Part shown: positions 48,749 to 63,325 of the stretch, piece by piece
Position numbering within the stretch: the stretch's first letter is position 1
How the letters are laid out: every line of letters begins with the position of its first letter
Assembly: GCF_000308695.1 (NCBI RefSeq)
Contig: NZ_BAGG01000124.1
Location: forward strand, 1-64,000
DNA: 64,000 nucleotides
Source of the DNA: Nocardia takedensis NBRC 100417
GTDB lineage: Bacteria; Actinomycetota; Actinomycetes; Mycobacteriales; Mycobacteriaceae
Direction: 5' to 3'
Notes under the pieces: model-generated
Databases searched by the model: none
Seen by the model: only the letters and a program-made list of their open reading frames with translations
Told to the model about the DNA's origin: nothing
Position numbers and translations under genes: made by a program

Positions 48749-49357
48749 TCAGCCGAGGGATTCGGCGCGGTCGCGGCCGTGCAGCGACTTCTCCAGGCCG
48801 GGGGCGACCAGATCCTCCAGACGGCGATAGGCGTCGGCGGCGGTCAACGGCGGGTCCGCGTCGACGATCATGCCGAGCAGTCCGACGATGCCCCAGGACA
48901 GGAAGGTCAAGGGGGCGGCCAATTCCCGCTCGTCCACGTCGAAGGTGACGGTCAACCGTTCGGCCAGGATCTTGGCCACCATGCCGCGCGTCGCGCGCAA
49001 CAGCACCGCGTTGGCCTTCGCGCCCAGCAGCGCGCGGTAGACCTGCGGGTTCTGCGCGGCGGTGCCGAACAGCGTGTACACCGGGGCCAGCGGTTCGTCG
49101 ATCGACGGCGCCGCCGGGTCGTCCGGGTCGGGCCGGGCGGCGGTGAACGTGGCGCGCAGGTATTCGGTGCTGCTGACCAGCAGCAGATCGTCCTTGTCGC
49201 GGAAATGGGCGTAGAAGGTGGAGCGGCCGATATCGGCGCGTTCCAAGATGTCGGCGACCGAGATACGGTCGTAGCCGCGCTCGAGCATGAGTTCGATCAG
49301 CGCCCGGTTCAGCAGGTTCCGGGTGCGCCGGACGCGGCGATCGGTGTCGCGGTTCAT
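48749..49357 (-). CDS. TetR-family transcriptional regulator
   Basis: A 202-residue regulator. The N-terminal helix-turn-helix is NLLNRALIELMLERGYDRIS VADILERADIGRSTFYAHFRDKDDLL, a clear TetR signature; the C-terminal ligand domain is not diagnostic (MVAKILAERL, LLGMIVDADPPLTAADAY). The ATG at 49357 gives MNRDTDRRVRRTRN; the frame upstream is not family-like. It is divergent from the ACP-PKS-FAAL operon across 351 bases and is the obvious candidate regulator. Confidence 0.9.
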   Translation of the reverse strand: MNRDTDRRVRRTRNLLNRALIELMLERGYDRISVADILERADIGRSTFYAHFRDKDDLLLVSSTEYLRATFTAARPDPDDPAAPSIDEPLAPVYTLFGTAAQNPQVYRALLGAKANAVLLRATRGMVAKILAERLTVTFDVDERELAAPLTFLSWGIVGLLGMIVDADPPLTAADAYRRLEDLVAPGLEKSLHGRDRAESLG

Positions 49358-49708
49358 CGGCCGCGCCCGGCGACGGAACTCGAGCGGCGGTCGGTCGGGC
49401 GGGAAATCGGTGTGCGCATGGGTCCTCCGGCGAAGCGCGCGGAAACCGCCGACGGGTCGGGGTCGCCCGCACTTCGCACCTGGTCGAGCCGGTGATGCCC
49501 CAACGATCATGGACACTCGGCCGGAAACAGACAACCGTACGGCGCGCTCGGACGGCGCGCCAAAGCCGACCCCGCCCGCCCGCGTGGCGCGAAACCGGCA
49601 GGCGGACAGCACAAACGGCATTCTCTGTTCGGTCCGTCACTGCGGCATAATCGCTGGGGAACCGCCGCACGGACCCGCCGGACCGGGCGAGCGGAGAGGG
49701 AGGACGCG
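49358..49708 (+). promoter_or_regulatory. Divergent regulatory region of TetR and the ACP-PKS-FAAL operon
   Basis: 351 bases with no gene. CATAAT at 49646-49651 is a good -10 hexamer for the operon, with only a weak -35 near 49622. GGCGCGC is repeated at 49541-49547 and 49554-49561 (start spacing 13), a possible operator. AGAGGGAGG precedes the ACP ATG. Confidence 0.5.
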
Positions 49709-49990
49709 ATGCGGCCCGAGCTGTCGGATGGGCACGAAGGGATCGGATACGGACGGGGAAGGCGCGCCGCGCTACTCACGGCCGCCGTGAACGCTGTCGC
49801 CGACCTGCTCGGCATCGCCCCCGACGCGGTCCCCACCGGCATGCCCTTCAGCGATCTCGGGCTCACTTCCACCCAGCTCGCGCGCCTGACAGCCCAGCTC
49901 GAAGATGCGATGGGTGTCGAGGTGACGCTGACCGCCCTCTACGACCACCCCGACATCGAACAGCTTGTCGAGCATCTCGCGATGCGATGA
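49709..49990 (+). CDS. Free-standing acyl carrier protein
   Basis: A 93-residue ACP. The phosphopantetheine site is S54 in SDLGLTSTQLARL (Thr in place of the usual Asp before the Ser). The helix II/III region LEDAMGVEVTLTALYDHPDIEQLVEHL is typical of PKS-type carriers. A strong AGGGAGG precedes the ATG. Its stop overlaps the PKS ATG (ATGA). Likely partner of the FAAL at the far end of the operon, which would load an acyl chain onto it for the PKS. Confidence 0.9.
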   Translation: MRPELSDGHEGIGYGRGRRAALLTAAVNAVADLLGIAPDAVPTGMPFSDLGLTSTQLARLTAQLEDAMGVEVTLTALYDHPDIEQLVEHLAMR

Positions 49991-52900
49991 CCGCCACCGA
50001 ACCCGCCCGCTCGCCCGCGCATGCGCCGGTCGCCATCGTCGGGATGGGCTGTCGGCTGCCCGGCGCCGACGGCCTCGACGCCTACTGGCGGTTGCTGCTC
50101 GACGGCCGCGACGTCACCGGCGCTCCCCCGCCCGGCCGCGCGGTCACCCGGCGCGGCGGCTACCTCCCCGACATCGACCGCTTCGACAACGACTGGTTCG
50201 CGATCTCCGCCCGCGAAGCCGCCGTGATGGACCCGCAGCAGCGGCTTGCTCTGGAAGTCGCCGTGGAAGCGGTCGACGACGCCGGCCTGGGGCACCGGGT
50301 GCGCGGCAGCGGCGGCGCGGTGGTCTTCGGCGCGTGCGGCTACGACCACGGCATCACGGTGCTCGGCGCGGGCGGACACGACGCGCCCTACGCGGTCACC
50401 GGATCGGCGCTGAGCATCATCGCCAATCGCCTGTCCTACGTGCTGGATCTGCGCGGACCGAGTCTGGTGGTGGACAGCGCCTGCTCGTCGTCGCTGGCCG
50501 CCGTCGACATCGCGGTGCGGCTGCTGGCCGACGAGACAGTGCCGTTCGCGCTGGTCGGCGGGGTCAACCTGACGCTGTTGCCGCACACCTCGGACTATCT
50601 GGCCGACAGCGGATTCCTCGCCGAGGACGGGCGCTGCAAACCGTTCGACGCCGCCGCCGACGGATACACCCGCGGTGACGGTTGCGGGGTGCTGGTGCTG
50701 CGTCGCAGCGCCGACGCGCACCGCGCGGGCGAGCGGGTCTACGCCGAGGTCGCCGGGGCGGCGGTCGGTTCCGACGGTCGCTCCAACGGGTTGTACGCGC
50801 CCAACGGCCGCGCCCAACGCGACACCGTGCGCGCGGCGTGGCGGCGGGCCGGTCTCGACCCGCGTCGCGCGGGTTACGTCGAATGTCACGGCACCGGGAC
50901 CGCGCTCGGCGACGCGGTGGAGGTCGGCGCGCTGGCGACGGTGCTGGCGCGACCCGAACCCGACCCGCCGATCTGGATCGGTTCGGCGAAATCCAATCTC
51001 GGGCACCTCGAGGCGGCAGCGGGCGCGGCGGGGCTGATCAAGACCGCACTGTCGATCCACCACGGCGTCATCGCGCCGACCGCGCACTTCCGCACCGAGA
51101 ATCCGCTGCTGAAACTGTCCGAGCGCGGATTGCGGGTGCCGACAGCCCCCGTCGACTGGACCGCCACACCGCCCGGACAGCGACTGGCGGGCGTGAGTTC
51201 GTTCGGCTTCGGCGGCACCAACGCGCACGTCGTGCTGCGCGGAGTCGACCCGGCGCTGCCCGCGCGCGCCGCCGAACCGCCGGTGCTGATCCCGATCACC
51301 GGACGCGACGTCGCCGACCTGCGCCGCCACGCCGCCGACTGCGCCGACCTGCTCGACGTCGAGGACCGGGACCTGCGCCGGGTCGCCGTGGCCGCCGCGC
51401 GGACCCTGCCCGAACAGGTGCGCGCCGCCGTCCTCGCCCACGACGCCGACCAGGCGATCCAGCGGTTGCGCGCGCTGTCGGCCGGAGAATCGGGCACCGG
51501 GATCACCGGGCCGAGCGCGACCCGGCGACGCGGCGGCGTGCTGTTCCTGTTCTCCGGTCAAGGCGGACAACACATCCGGATGGGTCGGGCACTGGCCGCC
51601 CGCCACCCGGTCTTCGCCCGCGCGCTGACCGCCGCGGCCGACGCCGTCGCCGCCGCGGGCGGCCCGAAGGTGTGGACGCCGCGCCACGGATTCGGCGCAC
51701 TCGGCGCCGACCCCGACGCCACCGCCCTCGTACAGCCCGCGGTGTTCGCCTACCAGGTCGCGCTGGCCGAACTGTTCGCCGCGTGGGGCGTGCGGCCCGA
51801 CGCCATCATCGGGCACAGCATGGGCGAGATCGCGGCCGCCGTCGCCGCCGGAGCCCTCCCGCTCGCCGACGCCGCGCGGGTCGTCGTCGCCCGCAGCGCG
51901 GCACTGGGCACCCTCGACGGACTCGGCGCGATGGCGCTGCTCGAGACCACCCCGGAAGAAGCCGCGCACCTGGTCGAACCGGTGCGTGCCGAAGTCGCGA
52001 TCGCGGCGGTCAACGGGCCGCGCTCGGTGGTCGTCTCCGGCGACCCGCGCTACGTGGAGACTGTGGTGCGCCGGGCCAAGCGCCGCGACATCTTCGCCCG
52101 CCGCGTAGCCGTCGAATTCGCCGCGCACAGTCCGCAGGTCGCCGCCGTGCTGCCCGACTTCCGCGCCGCGCTCACCGACCTCGAACCGCGCCCGCCCGCG
52201 CGACGTCTCTACTCCACCGCGCGGCGCGGCGCACTGCTCGACGACACCGACATGGACGCCGACTACTGGATCGAGAACGCCTCCGGCACCGTCGAACTCG
52301 CCGCCGCGCTGGAACGCGCCGCCGACGAGGGACACACCACCGTCGTCGAGATCGCGCCGCACCCGGTGCTGATCCCGGCCGTGCGCGAATACCCCGAATT
52401 CCGGGAATCGGCGCATCCGGGCGTCACCCGCGAGGACGAGGCGGGCGCGTTCCTGGACTGTCTGGCCCGCCTGCACGTCGAAGGCCGCGCGGTGGACTGG
52501 TCGGCGCTCGGCCCCTTCACCGGCCCCGCCGGGCGCAGACGCTGGCACCGACGACAGTTCCCGCCGCTGGTCACCGTCGAGATCGCCCCCGACGTACCGG
52601 AATTCGTCACCGACCGACTCGAGGACCACATCGTCGCCTCGGTCCCCACCGTGCCCGCGGTGTACTGGCTGCGCAGACTGCTGCACCTCGCGCACGCCGA
52701 GACCGCCACCGTCGTCCGCGATTTCGTCGTCCACGAGATGACCGAACTGCGCGCGCTGTCCCGGGTCGAGTACCGCGGCGAGGACGAACTGCGGGTGATC
52801 GCGGGCGGCAGAACCCTCGCGGCGGCCGTCGCGAGCGGCGACCCGTCCCCCGCCGACATCGTCGCCTGGATGCGATCGGCCGACGCCAACCGCGCGCTGC

Positions 52901-55002
52901 ACCACCAGATGCACAGCCTGGAAGCCGGCTACTTCTACGCCGAACTGCGCGGGCGGCAACTGGAATACGGGCCGCGGTTCCGTCCGTTGCGCCGCATCGC
53001 CACCGGCGAAGGCCGCGCGCTGGGCACCTTCGAGGACGCCGACCTGCACAGCACCGCCACCCTCGACGGCTGCCTGCACCTGCTCGCGGCGGCCTGCTGG
53101 GAAGACCTGCCCGAGGAGATCGTGCCGCTGCCGGTCGGCATCGACGCCGCGTGGCTGTCCACCGAGGCGGGCCGCGTGGTGTTGCAGGGGCACGCGCTGA
53201 TCCGCGAACGCACCGGCGCCGGCCTGGTCGGCGACGTCGTCGCCACCGATCAGCACGGCGCGCCCGTCCTCGCGCTGATCGGAGTCCACGTCCGCTTCGC
53301 GCACGCCGCCGCCCCGGCGCGCGCGCTCACCGCGCCCCGCGAACTGCCGCCGAGCGGGCTGCCCGCGTTCCGGCGCGAAACCTGGCAGGCCCTGCACCCC
53401 GACGTCCTCACCGCCCACGCCGACACCGGAGACAAGCACCCCCGCCGGGTACTGGTCGTCGGCGAATCCGACCTGGCCCGAGGACTGGCACGGGAACTGG
53501 AGGCGCGCGTGCCCACCGAACGCGTCGCCCGCGAACCCGAAGGCGCGCTCGCCGTACTGACCTCCACCCTGCTGCGCCGCACCGCCGCCGAACGCCTCGC
53601 CGTGGCGCTGGTGTGGCCCCCCGACGGCGACGAATCGGTCGCCGCGCTCGGCCGGGTGGTCGGCGTGCTGCAACACCTGCGCTCCCACGACGCGGTCGGC
53701 GCGCTCACCGTCATCCTGCCGCGGGGGCATTCGAGCAACGCCCACGCCGCCGCCGCGCTGGTCCGGTCGCTGCAACTGGAATCCGGCCGGGCGATCCGAC
53801 TGGCCTGGGCCGACCAGCGGGACGGCAACGTGGAAGTGCTCGCCGCGCTGGTCACCGCCGAACCCGACGCCGCCGTCCCCGACGAGATCCGGCTCAGCGG
53901 CGGCGATCCCGCGATCCGACGATTCACCGTCGCCGAGGCCGACACCGCGCCGCCCACCATCGACCCGGGCGGCACCTACGTGGTCACCGGCGGACTCGGC
54001 GCGCTCGGCGCGGTCGCGGTGCGCTGGCTGCTCGACGCGGGCGCCCACGACGTCGTCGTCCTGACCCGCTCACCGCGGCCGGTGCCTGCCCTGCTCGACG
54101 GCTCCGAGGACCGCATCGTCGTCGTCCGCTGCGACGCCGCCGACCACAGCGACCTGGACAACGCGCTGCGCGACATCCGCGAATGCGGGTCGACCATCCG
54201 CGGCGTCGTCCACGCGGCGGGCACCCTGGAGGACGCGGCCTTCGAGGCCGTCACCGCCGACCAGATCGCCCGCCTCGCCGCCGCCAAAGCGGTCGCCGCC
54301 GCCAACCTGCTCACCCTCACCGCGGGCGACCCGCTGGATTTCCTGCTGCTGTTCTCCTCCGCCACCGGCGCGCTCGGCGCACCGGGGCAAGCCGCCTACG
54401 CCGCCGCCAACGCGGCCATGGACGCACTCGCCGCCGGCGCGGAACGGCGGGTGCTCAGCATCGGCTGGGGCGTCTGGGAATCCGGGCTCGCCGAATCCGC
54501 GGGCGGCGCGATCCACCTGCGCCGCGCCGGCATCGCCGCCGTCGACACCCGGCGCGGCGCGGAACTGCTCGCGCGGGCCCTGCGCCACACCGAGCCCTAC
54601 CTGCTCGCCGTCGACTACACGCCCACCGCCGACACCGCACCGGTCGCCGGACGCCTGCGCAGCCTGCTGGCCCCACGCCGCGACCTCGCCCCGGCACCGG
54701 TCGAACCGACCGCACCCGCCCCGACGCCGCCCCCGCCCACCGGTCCCGAACCGCTCACCGCGATCATCCGCCGGGTGCTGGCCGCCACCGTCGACCTGCC
54801 CGCCGAATCCATCGACTCCACCGCCGATTTCAACGACCTCGGGTTGAGTTCCCTGCTCGCCATCGAACTGCGCCGCGCCCTGGAGACCCGCTTGAGCATC
54901 GCCATCTCGACCGCGGAACTGTTCCGTCACCCCACCGTCGCGGCCCTCGGCGCGGCCCTCGCCGACCGCGTCGCCGCCGCGCACACCGGCGAAGCCTCGT
55001 GA
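49987..55002 (+). CDS. Type I polyketide synthase, KS-AT-DH-KR-ACP
   Basis: A 1671-residue single module. KS: C166 (VDSACSSSLAAVD), H301 (ECHGTGTA) and H340 (KSNLGHLE). AT: S611 in GHSMGE, while the specificity segment reads EFAAHSP instead of HAFH or YASH, so the extender is uncertain. DH-like region about 860-1140: HIVASVPTVP (the usual Gly is Ser) and ATLDGCLHLL, so activity is possible. KR: TGGLGALGAVAV at about 1334 and SSATGALGAPGQAAYAAANAAMD with Tyr and Asn; HAAGTLEDAAF suggests a B-type. ACP: S1622 in LGLSSLLAIEL. No ER and no thioesterase. Overlaps its neighbours by four bases on each side. Confidence 0.95.
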   Translation: MTATEPARSPAHAPVAIVGMGCRLPGADGLDAYWRLLLDGRDVTGAPPPGRAVTRRGGYLPDIDRFDNDWFAISAREAAVMDPQQRLALEVAVEAVDDAGLGHRVRGSGGAVVFGACGYDHGITVLGAGGHDAPYAVTGSALSIIANRLSYVLDLRGPSLVVDSACSSSLAAVDIAVRLLADETVPFALVGGVNLTLLPHTSDYLADSGFLAEDGRCKPFDAAADGYTRGDGCGVLVLRRSADAHRAGERVYAEVAGAAVGSDGRSNGLYAPNGRAQRDTVRAAWRRAGLDPRRAGYVECHGTGTALGDAVEVGALATVLARPEPDPPIWIGSAKSNLGHLEAAAGAAGLIKTALSIHHGVIAPTAHFRTENPLLKLSERGLRVPTAPVDWTATPPGQRLAGVSSFGFGGTNAHVVLRGVDPALPARAAEPPVLIPITGRDVADLRRHAADCADLLDVEDRDLRRVAVAAARTLPEQVRAAVLAHDADQAIQRLRALSAGESGTGITGPSATRRRGGVLFLFSGQGGQHIRMGRALAARHPVFARALTAAADAVAAAGGPKVWTPRHGFGALGADPDATALVQPAVFAYQVALAELFAAWGVRPDAIIGHSMGEIAAAVAAGALPLADAARVVVARSAALGTLDGLGAMALLETTPEEAAHLVEPVRAEVAIAAVNGPRSVVVSGDPRYVETVVRRAKRRDIFARRVAVEFAAHSPQVAAVLPDFRAALTDLEPRPPARRLYSTARRGALLDDTDMDADYWIENASGTVELAAALERAADEGHTTVVEIAPHPVLIPAVREYPEFRESAHPGVTREDEAGAFLDCLARLHVEGRAVDWSALGPFTGPAGRRRWHRRQFPPLVTVEIAPDVPEFVTDRLEDHIVASVPTVPAVYWLRRLLHLAHAETATVVRDFVVHEMTELRALSRVEYRGEDELRVIAGGRTLAAAVASGDPSPADIVAWMRSADANRALHHQMHSLEAGYFYAELRGRQLEYGPRFRPLRRIATGEGRALGTFEDADLHSTATLDGCLHLLAAACWEDLPEEIVPLPVGIDAAWLSTEAGRVVLQGHALIRERTGAGLVGDVVATDQHGAPVLALIGVHVRFAHAAAPARALTAPRELPPSGLPAFRRETWQALHPDVLTAHADTGDKHPRRVLVVGESDLARGLARELEARVPTERVAREPEGALAVLTSTLLRRTAAERLAVALVWPPDGDESVAALGRVVGVLQHLRSHDAVGALTVILPRGHSSNAHAAAALVRSLQLESGRAIRLAWADQRDGNVEVLAALVTAEPDAAVPDEIRLSGGDPAIRRFTVAEADTAPPTIDPGGTYVVTGGLGALGAVAVRWLLDAGAHDVVVLTRSPRPVPALLDGSEDRIVVVRCDAADHSDLDNALRDIRECGSTIRGVVHAAGTLEDAAFEAVTADQIARLAAAKAVAAANLLTLTAGDPLDFLLLFSSATGALGAPGQAAYAAANAAMDALAAGAERRVLSIGWGVWESGLAESAGGAIHLRRAGIAAVDTRRGAELLARALRHTEPYLLAVDYTPTADTAPVAGRLRSLLAPRRDLAPAPVEPTAPAPTPPPPTGPEPLTAIIRRVLAATVDLPAESIDSTADFNDLGLSSLLAIELRRALETRLSIAISTAELFRHPTVAALGAALADRVAAAHTGEAS

Positions 55003-56864
55003 ACCCCGCCGACACGCTGCCCGCGCGCCTGGCCCGCTGGGCGCGGGTCCGCCCCGACACCACCGCCTACACGGCCCTCGAATTCCGCGGCCACGAACGC
55101 CTCTCGCACACCCTCGACTACGCCCGACTACACGGGGCCGCCGAAGCGACGGCACGGCGGCTGCGAAACCACAGCGACCCCGGCGACCGGGTCGCGATCC
55201 TCTGCGAACACGGACTCGACTACGTCGTCGCCTTCCTCGGCTGCCTCTACAGCGGACGCGTCGCGGTGCCGCTACTGCCGATCACCGGCGCGCGCAACAC
55301 CGAACGCGTCGACCGGGTACTCGCCGACGCCCGACCCGCGATCGCACTCGTCTCGCCCGGCGACACCGTCACGAAGGCAGCGGTGGAATCCGCTGTGCGG
55401 CAAGTGCTGTCACCTGAATCCCGCGCGAGCTACGGTGGTGCGGGCGCTGTCGGCCCGGCCGGTGACAGCTCGGCCGGTGAGGGCCGCACGGCCCGCAAGA
55501 CCGATGTCGCCTATCTGCAATACACCTCGGGATCGACCAAAGCACCTGCGGGCGTGCGCATCACGCACGCGAATCTGACCGCAGCCCTGGGGCAACTCCG
55601 CGAGGCCGTGCCCGTGGCCGTCGAGCGCCCGATCGTGACTTGGCTGCCGTTCTTCCACGACATGGGCCTGGTGATCGGGCTCGCGCTACCGCTCTACTGC
55701 GGGGTGCCGGGCGTGACGATGGCACCCTTGGATTTCGCGAAACGTCCGATCCGCTGGTTGCGCGCCTGCTCCGAGCACCGCGCCGGACTGACCGGCAGCC
55801 CCAACTTCGGTCTGGCACTGGCGGTCTCGGCCACCACGGACGCCGAACGCTCCGGTCTGGACCTGTCCGCTCTCGACGTCGTCCTCAACGGCGCGGAACC
55901 CGTCCGCGCCGAAGCCCTCACCGAATTCACCCGCGTCTACGCCCCCCACGGCTTCCGCCACCGCGCACACACCCCGGGCTACGGCCTCGCCGAAGCCACC
56001 CTCTCGGTCACCATCGCCGCCCCCTCCGCCGAACCGGTCGCCCACCACTTCGACCGCGCCGCCCTGAGCCGAGGCGTCGCGGTCCCCGTCGCAGACCATC
56101 CCGACAACGGGAGCAGTGCTGACGGATTCGGCGGTGACAGTGGCGGCGGCGGTGCGGCAGGGTCGTTGCTGTTGGTGGGGTGTGGGGCTCCGGTGGGGCA
56201 GCGGGTGGCGGTGATCGATGCGCGGGCGCGGGCGGTTCCGGATGGGCGGGTGGGCGAGATCTGGGTCTCGGGGCCGAATGTCGGCGGGGGCTATCACCTG
56301 GACCCGGTCGCGTCCGCCGCGACGTTCGGGGCCGAGCGCGCCGACGAGGCGACCGGCGGTTGGTTGCGTACCGGTGACCTGGGCTTCCTGTTCGACGGAC
56401 AGCTCTATATCGCGGGCCGCGCGAAGGATCTGATCGTCGTCGACGGGCGCAACCACTACCCGTCCGACATCGAGTCCACCGCCACGGCCGCGACGCCGCA
56501 CCTGCGCGCGGGCCATCTCACCGCCTTCGGCCACGACGACGGCGCGCGCGAAGACCTGGTGATCGTCGCCGAAGTCGTCGCCGATCTGCCCGCCGAGGTC
56601 GACCCGGTCGACCTCGCCCGCCGCGTCCGCTCGGCTGTCGCCGCCGCCCACGAGGTCATGCCCGCCGCGGTGGTGCTGGTCGCACCGGGCCGCATCCCGC
56701 GCACCTCCAGCGGGAAGGTGCGCCGCGGTGATTGCCACACCTTGTTCGCCGACGGCCTGCTCCCGGTCCTCGCGGCGGTCGGCACCGTGCCGAACGGAGG
56801 AGCCGGACGGGCGAATCCCGCGGGCGACCGCCGACGCCGCGGTGTGCCGCCACGACAGCCCTGA
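54999..56864 (+). CDS. Fatty acyl-AMP ligase (FAAL)
   Basis: A 621-residue ANL enzyme: QYTSGSTKAPAGVRITHANL (P-loop), TWLPFFHDMGLVIGLALPLY, LNGAEPVRAEALTEF, PGYGLAEATLSVTI and GRAKDLIVVDGRNHYPSDIE, all of the FAAL type, and the C-terminal Lys in TSSGKVRRG. FAALs make acyl-adenylates and load them on ACPs rather than CoA. A Gly/Ser-rich insertion (residues about 365-385) and a divergent stretch at 143-165 are odd but in non-conserved loops. The GTG overlaps the PKS stop (GTGA). Confidence 0.92.
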   Translation: MNPADTLPARLARWARVRPDTTAYTALEFRGHERLSHTLDYARLHGAAEATARRLRNHSDPGDRVAILCEHGLDYVVAFLGCLYSGRVAVPLLPITGARNTERVDRVLADARPAIALVSPGDTVTKAAVESAVRQVLSPESRASYGGAGAVGPAGDSSAGEGRTARKTDVAYLQYTSGSTKAPAGVRITHANLTAALGQLREAVPVAVERPIVTWLPFFHDMGLVIGLALPLYCGVPGVTMAPLDFAKRPIRWLRACSEHRAGLTGSPNFGLALAVSATTDAERSGLDLSALDVVLNGAEPVRAEALTEFTRVYAPHGFRHRAHTPGYGLAEATLSVTIAAPSAEPVAHHFDRAALSRGVAVPVADHPDNGSSADGFGGDSGGGGAAGSLLLVGCGAPVGQRVAVIDARARAVPDGRVGEIWVSGPNVGGGYHLDPVASAATFGAERADEATGGWLRTGDLGFLFDGQLYIAGRAKDLIVVDGRNHYPSDIESTATAATPHLRAGHLTAFGHDDGAREDLVIVAEVVADLPAEVDPVDLARRVRSAVAAAHEVMPAAVVLVAPGRIPRTSSGKVRRGDCHTLFADGLLPVLAAVGTVPNGGAGRANPAGDRRRRGVPPRQP

Positions 56865-56915: not shown

Positions 56916-57305
56916 ATGACCTCCGAAGCGATCGCCGTGACCTGGAAGCATCATCCGGACGAGCACGATTACCCGGCCGCCGCCGACTATCTCGAATTGC
57001 TCGGTGAGCCGGATGTGGTGGACGCGGTGGTGCGGCGGTTGCGGGACGCGCCGATCGTGCACAAGAAGGCCAAGGACATTCTGCGGGCGGCGCGGCTGGA
57101 ATTGCTGTCGGCCGACAATCCGCATGTGCGCCGCGATCTGATCAAGATCAACAATGGCAAGGCGCTGTCGCCGATCCTGCTGGTGCGCGGCGATTTCCGG
57201 CACGACGTGCCGGTGGTGATCGCCGACGGCTACCACCGGGTATGCGCGATCCACTGGGCCGACGAGGACATCGAGATCCCGGCCAAGATCGCTTCGCTGC
57301 CGTGA
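56916..57305 (+). CDS. Small ParB/Srx-like protein
   Basis: A 129-residue protein. The C-terminal part (LIKINNGKALSPILLVRGD, then VVIADGYHRVCAIHWADED) resembles the ParB/sulfiredoxin nucleotide-binding motif GxHR, here DGYHR. The N-terminus is helical. No known function. Its stop overlaps the antiporter's GTG (GTGA), a coupling that suggests joint expression. Confidence 0.6.
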   Translation: MTSEAIAVTWKHHPDEHDYPAAADYLELLGEPDVVDAVVRRLRDAPIVHKKAKDILRAARLELLSADNPHVRRDLIKINNGKALSPILLVRGDFRHDVPVVIADGYHRVCAIHWADEDIEIPAKIASLP

Positions 57306-58448
57306 CCTTCTCCACCCTCGCGCTGGTGATCGCCCTCGGGTTGTGCGGTCCGCTGTTCGCGGTGCGCACCGCCTGGCACGTGCCGGTGATCCTGGGCGAA
57401 CTGGTGGCCGGAATCGTATTCGGCGCCACCGGGTTCGGGGTACTGCACACCTCGGACCCGGTCTTCGTGTTCCTGGCCGACATGGGTTTCGCGATGGTGA
57501 TGTTCGTGGCGGGCACCCATGTGCCGGTGCGCGATCCGGCGGTGCGGTCGGCGCTGGGCGTGGGCGCGCTGCGGGCGGTGCTGGTCGGCGTCCTGGCGGC
57601 GGCGGGCGGTTACGGCATCGCGGCCTGGTTCGGCACCGGTCACGGCGCGATCTACGCGGTGCTGCTCGCGTCGTCTTCGGCGGCGCTGGTGTTGCCGATC
57701 ATCGATTCGGCGGATCTGTCCGGTCGCCGGGTGCTCGCGCTGACCGCGCAGGTGGCGATCGCGGACACGGCGTGCGTCGTGGCTCTGCCGCTGGTCATCG
57801 ATCCCGGCAACGCGGCGCGGGCGGCATTCGGCGCGGCGGCGGTGGCGGCGTGCGCGGGCGTGATGTTCCTGGTGCTGCGGTACCTGGAGAATTCGGGGTT
57901 GCGCCGCCGGGTGCACCGTCTCTCGGAGCGGCGCGGGTTCGCGCTGGAACTGCGGGTGAGCCTGGCGCTGCTGTTCGTGCTGTGCGCGGTCGCCACCCCG
58001 CACGCATGTCTCGATCATGTTGGCGGGCTTCGCCTGCGGACTGGCGGTCGCGGGCATCGGGGAACCTCGTCGGGTGGCCAAGCAACTGTTCGCCATCAAC
58101 GACGGATTCCTCGCGCCGCTGTTCTTCGTCTGGCTGGGCGCACGACTCAACCTGCGGGAATTCGGCGAGCATCCGCGGTTGATCGCGCTCGGCGTCGCAC
58201 TGGGGGTGGGGGCGGTCGCGGCGCATCTGGTCACGCGGGTCGCGGGACAGCCACTCGCCTACGGCGCCTTGGCCGCGGCACAGATCGGGGTGCCGGTGGC
58301 GGCGGTGACGGTGGGCACGCAACTGCACGTGCTGGTTCCGGGGGAATCCTCGGCGATCATGCTCGGCGCGTTGATCACCATCGGGACGGCCGCGCTCGCG
58401 TCGAGCCGGATCGCCGCTCGGCAGCGCGATCCGGTCCGACGGAGTTAG
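57302..58448 (+). pseudogene. CPA2-type cation/proton antiporter, frameshifted
   Basis: The first part (MTFSTLALVIALGLCGPLFA, LVAGIVFGATGFGVLHTSDP) and the second part in another frame (SIMLAGFACGLAVAGIGEPR, LFAINDGFLAPLFFVWLGAR) make a normal Na+/H+-exchanger-type membrane protein of about 11 helices if one C is removed from the run of four at about 57996-57999. This gives VCAVATRTHVSIMLAGF across the joint. Each half retains conserved helices, so a consensus error is likely. CPA2 exchangers exchange monovalent cations for protons or glutathione-linked stress signals. Confidence 0.75.
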
Positions 58449-62374: not shown

Positions 62375-63325
62375 ATGTCCACCACCACTGCCCGCGACGC
62401 CGCCGACGGCAGGCGTCTGACGGTGACCACCGACGACGGGGTGCCGATCGCCGTCCACCGGTACGGCGGCGCGGACGCCCGACTGACCGTGGTCTTCGTA
62501 CACGGCCACTGCCTGCGCACCGATTCGTGGTCCTACCTGCGCGAACATCTCGCGCGCCGCTGGGGAGCCGACATCGGGATGGTGTTCTACGACCACCGCG
62601 GACACGGCGAATCCGGCAGTGCCGCGCCCGCGACCTACACGATCGACCAACTCGGCCGCGACCTGGACGCGGTGCTGCGCGTGATCGTCCCGACCGGGCC
62701 GATCGTCTTGGTCGGCCATTCGATGGGCGCGATGGTGACCTTGGCCTACGCGCGACTGTTCCCGCACACGATCGGCACGCGGGTGGTGGGCGTCGGGTTG
62801 ATCGCGGGCGCGGCGGGCGGCGTCACCCGGATCGGGCTCGGCCGGTTCCTGCACCGGTACGCGGTGGCCTCGCTCCAGGTGGCGGTGGTGCGCGCGCCGC
62901 GAATGATGCAGGCGTCCAAGCAGATGACCCGGCGGATCTTCGAGCCGATCGTGCGCGAGGCCCAGTTCGGCACGCGCGCGGTCAATCCGCGGATGGCGGC
63001 GATCGCGACGGCGATGCTCAACGACACCCCACTGCTGACCATGTCGAGTTTCCTGGCTTCGTTCATCGCCTTCGACGAGACCGCGACGTTGCACCGACTC
63101 GGCGCCATACCCGCCCTGGTGCTGGCGGGCACGGCGGACATCGTCGTCCCGTACGCGCATTCGGTCGTGCTGGCCTCGCAGTTGGCGTGCGCGGAACTGG
63201 TGGCCGTCGACGGCGCGGGGCACAGCGTGATCCTGGAGCGCGCGGAGGAGGTGGCGCTGTCGCTGGTGGCGCTGGTGGACCGGGTGCTCGCCGCTGGTGC
63301 GGCGCCCTACGCGACCGCGGGCTGA
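62375..63325 (+). CDS. Alpha/beta hydrolase
   Basis: A 316-residue hydrolase. Oxyanion region VVFVHGHCLRTDSWSYL, nucleophile S116 in VLVGHSMGAMVTLA, Asp in VLAGTADIVVPYAH, His in DGAGHSVILERAEE. No signal peptide. Family includes esterases, haloperoxidase-like and lactonases; the cap domain (FLHRYAVASLQVAVV ... MQASKQMTRRIF) is not diagnostic. GGAGG precedes the ATG. Confidence 0.9.
   Translation: MSTTTARDAADGRRLTVTTDDGVPIAVHRYGGADARLTVVFVHGHCLRTDSWSYLREHLARRWGADIGMVFYDHRGHGESGSAAPATYTIDQLGRDLDAVLRVIVPTGPIVLVGHSMGAMVTLAYARLFPHTIGTRVVGVGLIAGAAGGVTRIGLGRFLHRYAVASLQVAVVRAPRMMQASKQMTRRIFEPIVREAQFGTRAVNPRMAAIATAMLNDTPLLTMSSFLASFIAFDETATLHRLGAIPALVLAGTADIVVPYAHSVVLASQLACAELVAVDGAGHSVILERAEEVALSLVALVDRVLAAGAAPYATAG

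Follow-up and report, generated by a model that had tools for sequence, protein, structure and literature searches.

What does a compact operon of one ACP, one PKS module and one FAAL do in Nocardia, and why would many relatives keep its PKS once catalytic residues have been lost? We analyzed such an operon in a 64,000-nucleotide window, the whole stretch of Nocardia takedensis NBRC 100417 DNA under study. It comprises a free-standing ACP (49709..49990, + strand; 93 aa, Pfam PF00550 at 1.3e-15, phosphopantetheine Ser in DLGLTSTQ), a one-module type I PKS with the layout KS-AT-DH-KR-ACP (49987..55002, + strand; 1671 aa) and a FAAL (fatty acyl-AMP ligase; 54999..56864, + strand; GTG start, 621 aa). 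ORF coordinates place a 4-base overlap at each junction (49987-49990 for ACP/PKS and 54999-55002 for PKS/FAAL), and a TetR-family regulator (48749..49357, - strand; 202 aa from the likely start within a longer reading frame to 49621, Pfam TetR_N) is divergent from the set. ORF coordinates and Pfam thus bear out the preliminary description in its gene content, overlaps and divergent regulator. The regulator is a local feature, found at 7 of 125 loci. A non-coding block in the TetR-ACP gap (49491..49538, no strand), conserved between the window and two relatives in an alignment of the three intergenic regions, is a candidate promoter/operator, and a palindrome scan of the gap returned one G+C-rich repeat.

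We then profiled the PKS domain by domain, all on the + strand. Pfam matched KS, AT, DH, KR and PP-binding families, with no match to an ER, a TE or an N-terminal ACP. The KS (50026..51351, residues 14-455; Pfam) retains Cys166, His301 and His340, and the AT (51544..52389, residues 520-801) carries GHSMGE with Ser611, FAAH with His714, and two family elements, GGPKVWTPRHGF and RRAKRR. The DH (52624..53319, about residues 880-1111; Pfam PS-DH at 2.4e-17) has His881 and Asp1027; the KR (53479..54480) consists of a structural half (about 1165-1328) and a catalytic half (1329-1498) with GGLGALG, Ser1458 and Tyr1471; and the C-terminal ACP (54766..54960, residues 1594-1658) has Ser1622. All ten of these tested residues, which we take to have their usual catalytic roles, are intact in the window copy, as in a reducing one-module type I PKS. 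Loss of KS or AT residues, singled out in the preliminary description as evidence against its reading, was looked for and is absent. The closest PDB relatives of the PKS are DEBS modules and MAS, whose ATs are methylmalonyl-type. The window AT motif FAAHSPQV resembles YASHSPQI of DEBS and ASHSPQV of MAS and is nearer to methylmalonyl- than to malonyl-type ATs, so a methylmalonyl extender and a 2-methyl-2-enoyl product are a tentative suggestion, no stronger than a guess from the motif. A plasmid search with the PKS returned only relatives below 60% identity.

The ligase matches the AMP-binding family PF00501 at 1.6e-52, with the P-loop LQYTSGSTKAP and the C-terminal Lys motif IPRTSSGKVRR (including TSSGK) intact. 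Its best NCBIfam matches are fatty-acid--AMP ligase models, with scores below their cut-offs, and 15 PDB sequences match at E <= 1e-60 under the names FadD23, FadD28, FadD32, acyl-CoA synthase, fatty acyl-adenylate ligase, polyketide synthase (3) and saframycin synthetase B (1). The matched "polyketide synthase" and saframycin synthetase B entries are tabulated as FAALs in PMC11837247. By these comparisons, the window ligase appears nearer to FAALs than to CoA ligases. Its nearest named loci are in N. aurea (63%), N. arizonensis (62%) and N. bovistercoris (61%), and identities outside Nocardia are 46% or less among the matches listed. Saccharothrix, Kutzneria, Streptomyces, Actinomadura and Actinoplanes (L127, L129, L130, L131, L133) have another recurring FAAL cluster, in which the FAAL lies beside a stand-alone KS, a protein of 280 aa and two PKS-like proteins of larger size.

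Product release was sought among the neighboring genes. Pfam found no Pap acyltransferase or MmpL among those scanned (45657, 47016, TetR, 56916, the antiporter, 58852, 60441 and 62375), in agreement with the earlier statement that neither adjoins the operon. The companion statement that no thioesterase is adjacent stands in part: the scanned genes include no dedicated release gene, but an alpha/beta hydrolase 5.5 kb downstream of the operon (62375-63325) passes the Pfam Thioesterase cut-off (37.8 vs 26.4 bits). We rejected this hydrolase as a dedicated release gene because it is a general conserved neighbor, and the conserved neighbors of the operon are general genes. Two further downstream genes deserve mention. 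A 129-aa gene directly after the FAAL (56916-57305) belongs to no Pfam family and occurs at 12 of 56 Ser-type and 23 of 57 Gly-type loci (types defined below), and a CPA2-type antiporter gene (57242-58448) is seemingly split by a frame change near 58000, either by an assembly error or in reality, and is uninterrupted in relatives at about 380 aa.

Taken with family knowledge, from which each chemical step is drawn, the domains fit a likely scheme. The FAAL would adenylate a fatty acid and load it onto the free ACP, from which the KS would take the acyl chain; the AT would load an extender, perhaps methylmalonyl, onto the C-terminal ACP; and after a single condensation, KR and DH action would yield an ACP-bound (2-methyl-)2-enoyl chain, which an acyltransferase or hydrolase from another part of the genome would release. 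A TE is likewise missing from MAS-type synthases, which pass their product to an acyltransferase. An iterative PKS making a polyene or aromatic product instead of one extension appears unlikely. KS-AT-DH-KR-ACP is also the layout of iterative bacterial PKSs such as the 6-methylsalicylate synthases, but a fatty starter is suggested by the presence of a FAAL and a free ACP in the operon, and the top PDB relatives are DEBS modules and MAS.

The operon was further compared with known FAAL-PKS systems. In mycobacterial lipid loci (FadD21/Pks3-4, FadD23/Pks2, FadD28/MAS), a fatty acid passes from the FAAL to a one-module PKS that has no thioesterase of its own. The window operon shares this arrangement and counts MAS among its nearest solved relatives, but its PKS has no ER, a free ACP is part of the operon, and the scanned neighbors hold no Pap or MmpL gene; against the Pks2 model NF041183, the PKS scores 599 bits, far from the cut-off of 2400, unlike a MAS/Pks2-type enzyme. 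Nocardia is a mycolate-making genus, and the operon resembles FadD32/Pks13 in pairing a FAAL with a one-module PKS; unlike Pks13, the window PKS lacks an N-terminal ACP and a TE and has KR and DH, and it scores 664 bits against the Pks13 model NF040607 (cut-off 2100). The claim that the arrangement matches none of the mycobacterial lipid loci therefore holds for Pks13 and MAS/Pks2 by the Pfam and NCBIfam features tested. In the cyanobacterial olefin synthase, a FAAL and ACP are followed by KS-AT-KR-ACP and a sulfotransferase (PMC11837247). The window operon likewise has a FAAL and ACP feeding one PKS module, but as separate proteins and with a DH, and Pfam found no sulfotransferase in the PKS or the scanned neighbors, which sets it apart from olefin synthase. 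Release in that system also uses a thioesterase.

Next, we mapped the locus across 150 genomes of the genus. The FAAL query matched 73 of them at E <= 1e-120 (74 hits, including that of the window), and 72 of the 74 hits lie within 20 kb of a flank ortholog; the two exceptions are the second copy of G067 and the hit in G012. The flank AAA gene (60441) has an ortholog in 147 of 150 genomes and the flank acyl-CoA synthetase (47016) a match in 148, about 16 of these at 68-71% only. Synteny with near-universal flanks indicates a genus-level locus rather than a stray cluster, and presence of the cassette, judged by this conserved gene order, is not a matter of chance. The earlier view of the operon as an isolated orphan is thus overturned, with FAAL orthologs at the same locus in 72 of 150 Nocardia genomes.

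Our main set of 125 loci covered the locus itself in 123 genomes plus the second places in G067 and G012, and all six frames of these loci were scanned with domain models derived from intact copies. A later addition of 25 more genomes and three refetched loci gave 6 Gly copies, 3 Ser copies, which came from the refetched loci, and 15 loci without a PKS. In the resulting tally of 150 genomes, the AT is readable in 122; the PKS or cassette is partly covered in seven (G035, G055, G119, G127, G172, G184, G191); the contig is too short in one (G032); and two were not fetched (G015, G134). No PKS was found at the locus in the remaining 18, which are G054, G162, G171 and 15 more, where the search covered the 13-14 kb that precede the 60441 ortholog on its upstream side; the PKS protein is therefore dispensable in those lineages.

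A metallo-beta-lactamase-fold hydrolase with the motif HLHWDH in every copy lies in the fetched stretch of 81 of the 125 loci (e.g., L049:3323-4294), and we considered it as a release enzyme. It occurs at 40 of 56 Ser-type and 38 of 57 Gly-type loci, at 3 of 6 without a read PKS, and at none of the 4 partial PKS loci or the 2 second copies. It is also present at 15 of 15 further loci without a PKS and is missing in the window clade, the window genome having a 46% homolog on another contig only. The candidate was rejected because its presence is independent of PKS activity. Fifteen genomes with an acyl-CoA synthetase flank at 68-71% (L280-L294) have no PKS near the 60441 ortholog and have kept this hydrolase gene.

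The AT nucleophile position divides the readable copies into two types. Among 122 copies, 59 have Ser and 63 have Gly (56 and 57 in the main set); the label itself defines the groups, so that the informative points are the lack of any third residue and the features associated with each type. All ten tested catalytic residues are present in 54 of 56 Ser copies, the exceptions G043 and G196 both lacking the C-terminal ACP; a FAAL accompanies 53 of the 56, 53 of the 54 fully intact copies have both free ACP and FAAL, and domain matches show the complete cassette in the 3 further Ser copies. In the Gly group, the KS Cys is retained in 3 of 57, the KR Tyr in 7 of 57 and the KR glycines in 55 of 57. 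The C-terminal ACP Ser is found in 54 of 56 Ser copies vs 0 of 57 Gly copies, and the 6 further Gly copies gave no C-terminal ACP match. Most Gly copies are long open frames (647-1908 aa between stops, n=57), some of them in one-contig genomes (e.g., G048, G041, G177, G185), and the most reduced are proteins of about 650 aa made up of the AT, a short DH remnant and the NADPH-binding half of the KR. G020 is Gly-type and has neither FAAL nor ACP; the PKS of G066 is split between two reading frames, and its free ACP lies in two pieces. Of 46 named loci that were located via their FAAL and have a readable AT, seven are Gly-type: N. brasiliensis (two strains), N. vulneris, N. ninae, N. suismassiliense, N. 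colli and N. altamirensis. For comparison, all of the best-scoring 30 of 100 other AT matches in five Nocardia genomes have Ser.

In 44 of 57 Gly copies, both the FAAL and the free ACP have been lost, and a FAAL ORF remains in 13; its motifs are intact in 10 of these, and the free ACP Ser is kept in all 9 that are readable. Across the set, 66 free ACPs were read, and the phosphopantetheine Ser is kept in 65 of them; the remaining one has a gap at this position. In G012, G022 and G036 (L212, L070, L063), the FAAL ORF is retained but both its P-loop and its Lys motif are destroyed, which makes it another disarmed enzyme of the locus. Intact FAALs and free ACPs beside disarmed PKSs are what one might expect if the operon served to load a PKS or NRPS cluster elsewhere in the genome and were not a pathway of its own, as are the 48 KS matches in the window genome and the missing dedicated release gene among scanned neighbors. 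We nevertheless regard this alternative as improbable, given that the conserved neighbors at the locus, all general genes, include no co-located or co-conserved partner.

How often the Gly state arose was examined in a flank-protein tree (three genes, 113 of 125 rows kept) and in AT+KR trees (112 rows, 56 Gly; motif columns, 9 later copies and G066, whose KR is in another frame, left out). Gly copies are scattered among Ser copies in both. The AT+KR tree requires at least 7 state changes, 5 of which are forced by starred branches; it was built by a quick method, the stars are less sure with long rows, and changes are read as Gly gains on the premise that catalysis is not regained. A single ancient disarmed copy, spread by transfer or differential loss after one Ser-to-Gly change, would account for the same residue in all Gly copies, but we consider it very improbable: in both gene and flank trees, Gly copies have different Ser copies as their neighbors, and holding all Gly rows as one clade costs 160 log units and is rejected (AU p 1.2e-41). 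In addition, G161, a Gly copy on a long branch, pairs with the Ser-type G043 at 99% SH-aLRT in the quick tree. Under the model, more than one origin of the Gly state is firm. We are unsure of the exact count, which the long branches (G020, G161, G022, G036) and the quick tree method may inflate.

Next, we asked whether the Gly-type copies evolve under constraint, using pairwise dN/dS counts on hand-picked pairs of neighboring copies. AT values were 0.07-0.38 in 16 Gly pairs and 0.10-0.24 in 11 Ser pairs, and KR values 0.03-0.28 and 0.07-0.33, respectively. KS remnants in Gly pairs gave 0.05-0.40, and the DH stretches (42-230 codons, present in eight Gly pairs) 0 to 0.69 and once 1.54. The median AT value of 0.245 in Gly-type vs 0.15 in Ser-type copies indicates looser selection in the former. 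The Gly is encoded by GGG (27), GGT (18) and GGC (10) in the 55 of 57 copies read automatically (G068 and G150 were seen by eye), and the Ser by AGC (40) and AGT (16); with three Gly codons in use, the residue stays constant although its codon changes. Collectively, these sequence comparisons indicate that the Gly-type relatives, as distinct from the window copy, have lost catalytic residues while staying under purifying selection, in the manner of pseudoenzymes, with G066 and the DH remnants as exceptions.

Within the Gly-type AT, the Gly itself and a Glu three residues on are fixed in 57 of 57 copies and an Arg is present in 47 of 57, and the elements GGxRxWTPxxGF and RRAxRR occur at 92-100% in both AT types; these two elements are not the consensus of the 30 other Nocardia ATs aligned to the same model. 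The positions of the oxyanion Gln, Asn and His vary. Selection in Gly-type copies would thus act on the AT fold and not on its chemistry. Once catalysis is no longer required, a Gly in the strained turn of the nucleophile would be expected on general grounds to ease the fold. An AlphaFold2 model of the N. brasiliensis Gly-type KS-remnant-AT (mean pLDDT 72, about 80 over the AT) suggests that this AT can plausibly keep its fold; Foldseek aligned the model with KS-AT didomains at TM about 0.4-0.47 and rmsd near 25. A role for the Gly-type AT as a malonyl-CoA sensor was also considered and is weakened by the variable oxyanion positions.

The Gly-type copies could instead be slowly decaying relics whose frames are kept open by high G+C, the window operon then being an ordinary mono-modular PKS. 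Several observations agree with decay: the joint loss of FAAL and free ACP in most Gly copies, the variable AT pocket residues, the raised median AT dN/dS, the two DH-remnant pairs at 1.54 and 0.69, the broken frame of G066 and the 18 genomes without any PKS at the locus. It fits poorly with AT values of 0.38 or less and KR values of 0.28 or less in all 16 Gly pairs, with Gly in 63 of 63 copies through three codons in the 55 read, with the nearly universal KR glycines, and with open frames of 647-1908 aa, some in one-contig genomes. On balance, we consider decay unlikely, if still a serious contender.

To reconcile a working operon with conserved, disarmed relatives, we propose that the window holds a one-step fatty-acid extension operon and that a non-catalytic role of the PKS has outlived catalysis in relatives, an explanation to which we give about an even chance. 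The second role of the polypeptide would be carried by the AT fold and the NADPH-binding KR half. In other Nocardia, catalysis would have been lost several times independently, each time with a Ser-to-Gly change in the AT, and the protein would have stayed as a pseudoenzyme. The sequences give hints of such a role, for which scaffolding or partner binding is our likeliest guess over small-molecule sensing, because AT pocket residues drift while the family-specific AT motifs are near-fixed. Counting against it are the 18 genomes without a PKS, the looser selection on Gly-type ATs, the DH-remnant values and the frame-broken G066. A bolder reading makes the PKS bifunctional: its conserved job would be non-catalytic, as an AT-fold and NADPH-binding platform for partner binding or for reporting cell state, and synthesis would be the dispensable part, disarmed at least 5 times, each time by AT Ser-to-Gly. 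We put this forward tentatively, as possible but rather doubtful; the 15 added loci without a PKS lowered our confidence in it and in the second-role explanation alike.

A survey of Nocardia described conserved mono-modular type I PKS families (GCF 1, 11 and 14), and its authors' guess for GCF 11/14 was fatty acid precursor modification (PMC7413640). The window operon resembles GCF 11/14 in its conserved mono-modular PKS, and one of the mono-modular families may be this locus; in contrast to the locus relatives analyzed here, the accessible part of that survey describes no active-site loss for these families (PMC7413640). The matches listed in the open PMC literature included no paper on the operon or on inactive or disarmed Nocardia PKSs.

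Roughly half of the readable copies thus have this PKS module in intact form, and in the others it persists as a conserved but dead protein (59 Ser, 63 Gly). For genome mining, this is a caution, as many Nocardia "PKS" genes of this locus are probably unable to make a polyketide. PKS modules are otherwise treated as enzymes only, and the locus offers a direct way to ask about non-chemical PKS roles and about the routes by which a megaenzyme becomes a pseudoenzyme. If the bifunctional reading is true, Nocardia would hold, at one locus, a natural series from a full synthase to a 650-aa pseudo-PKS.
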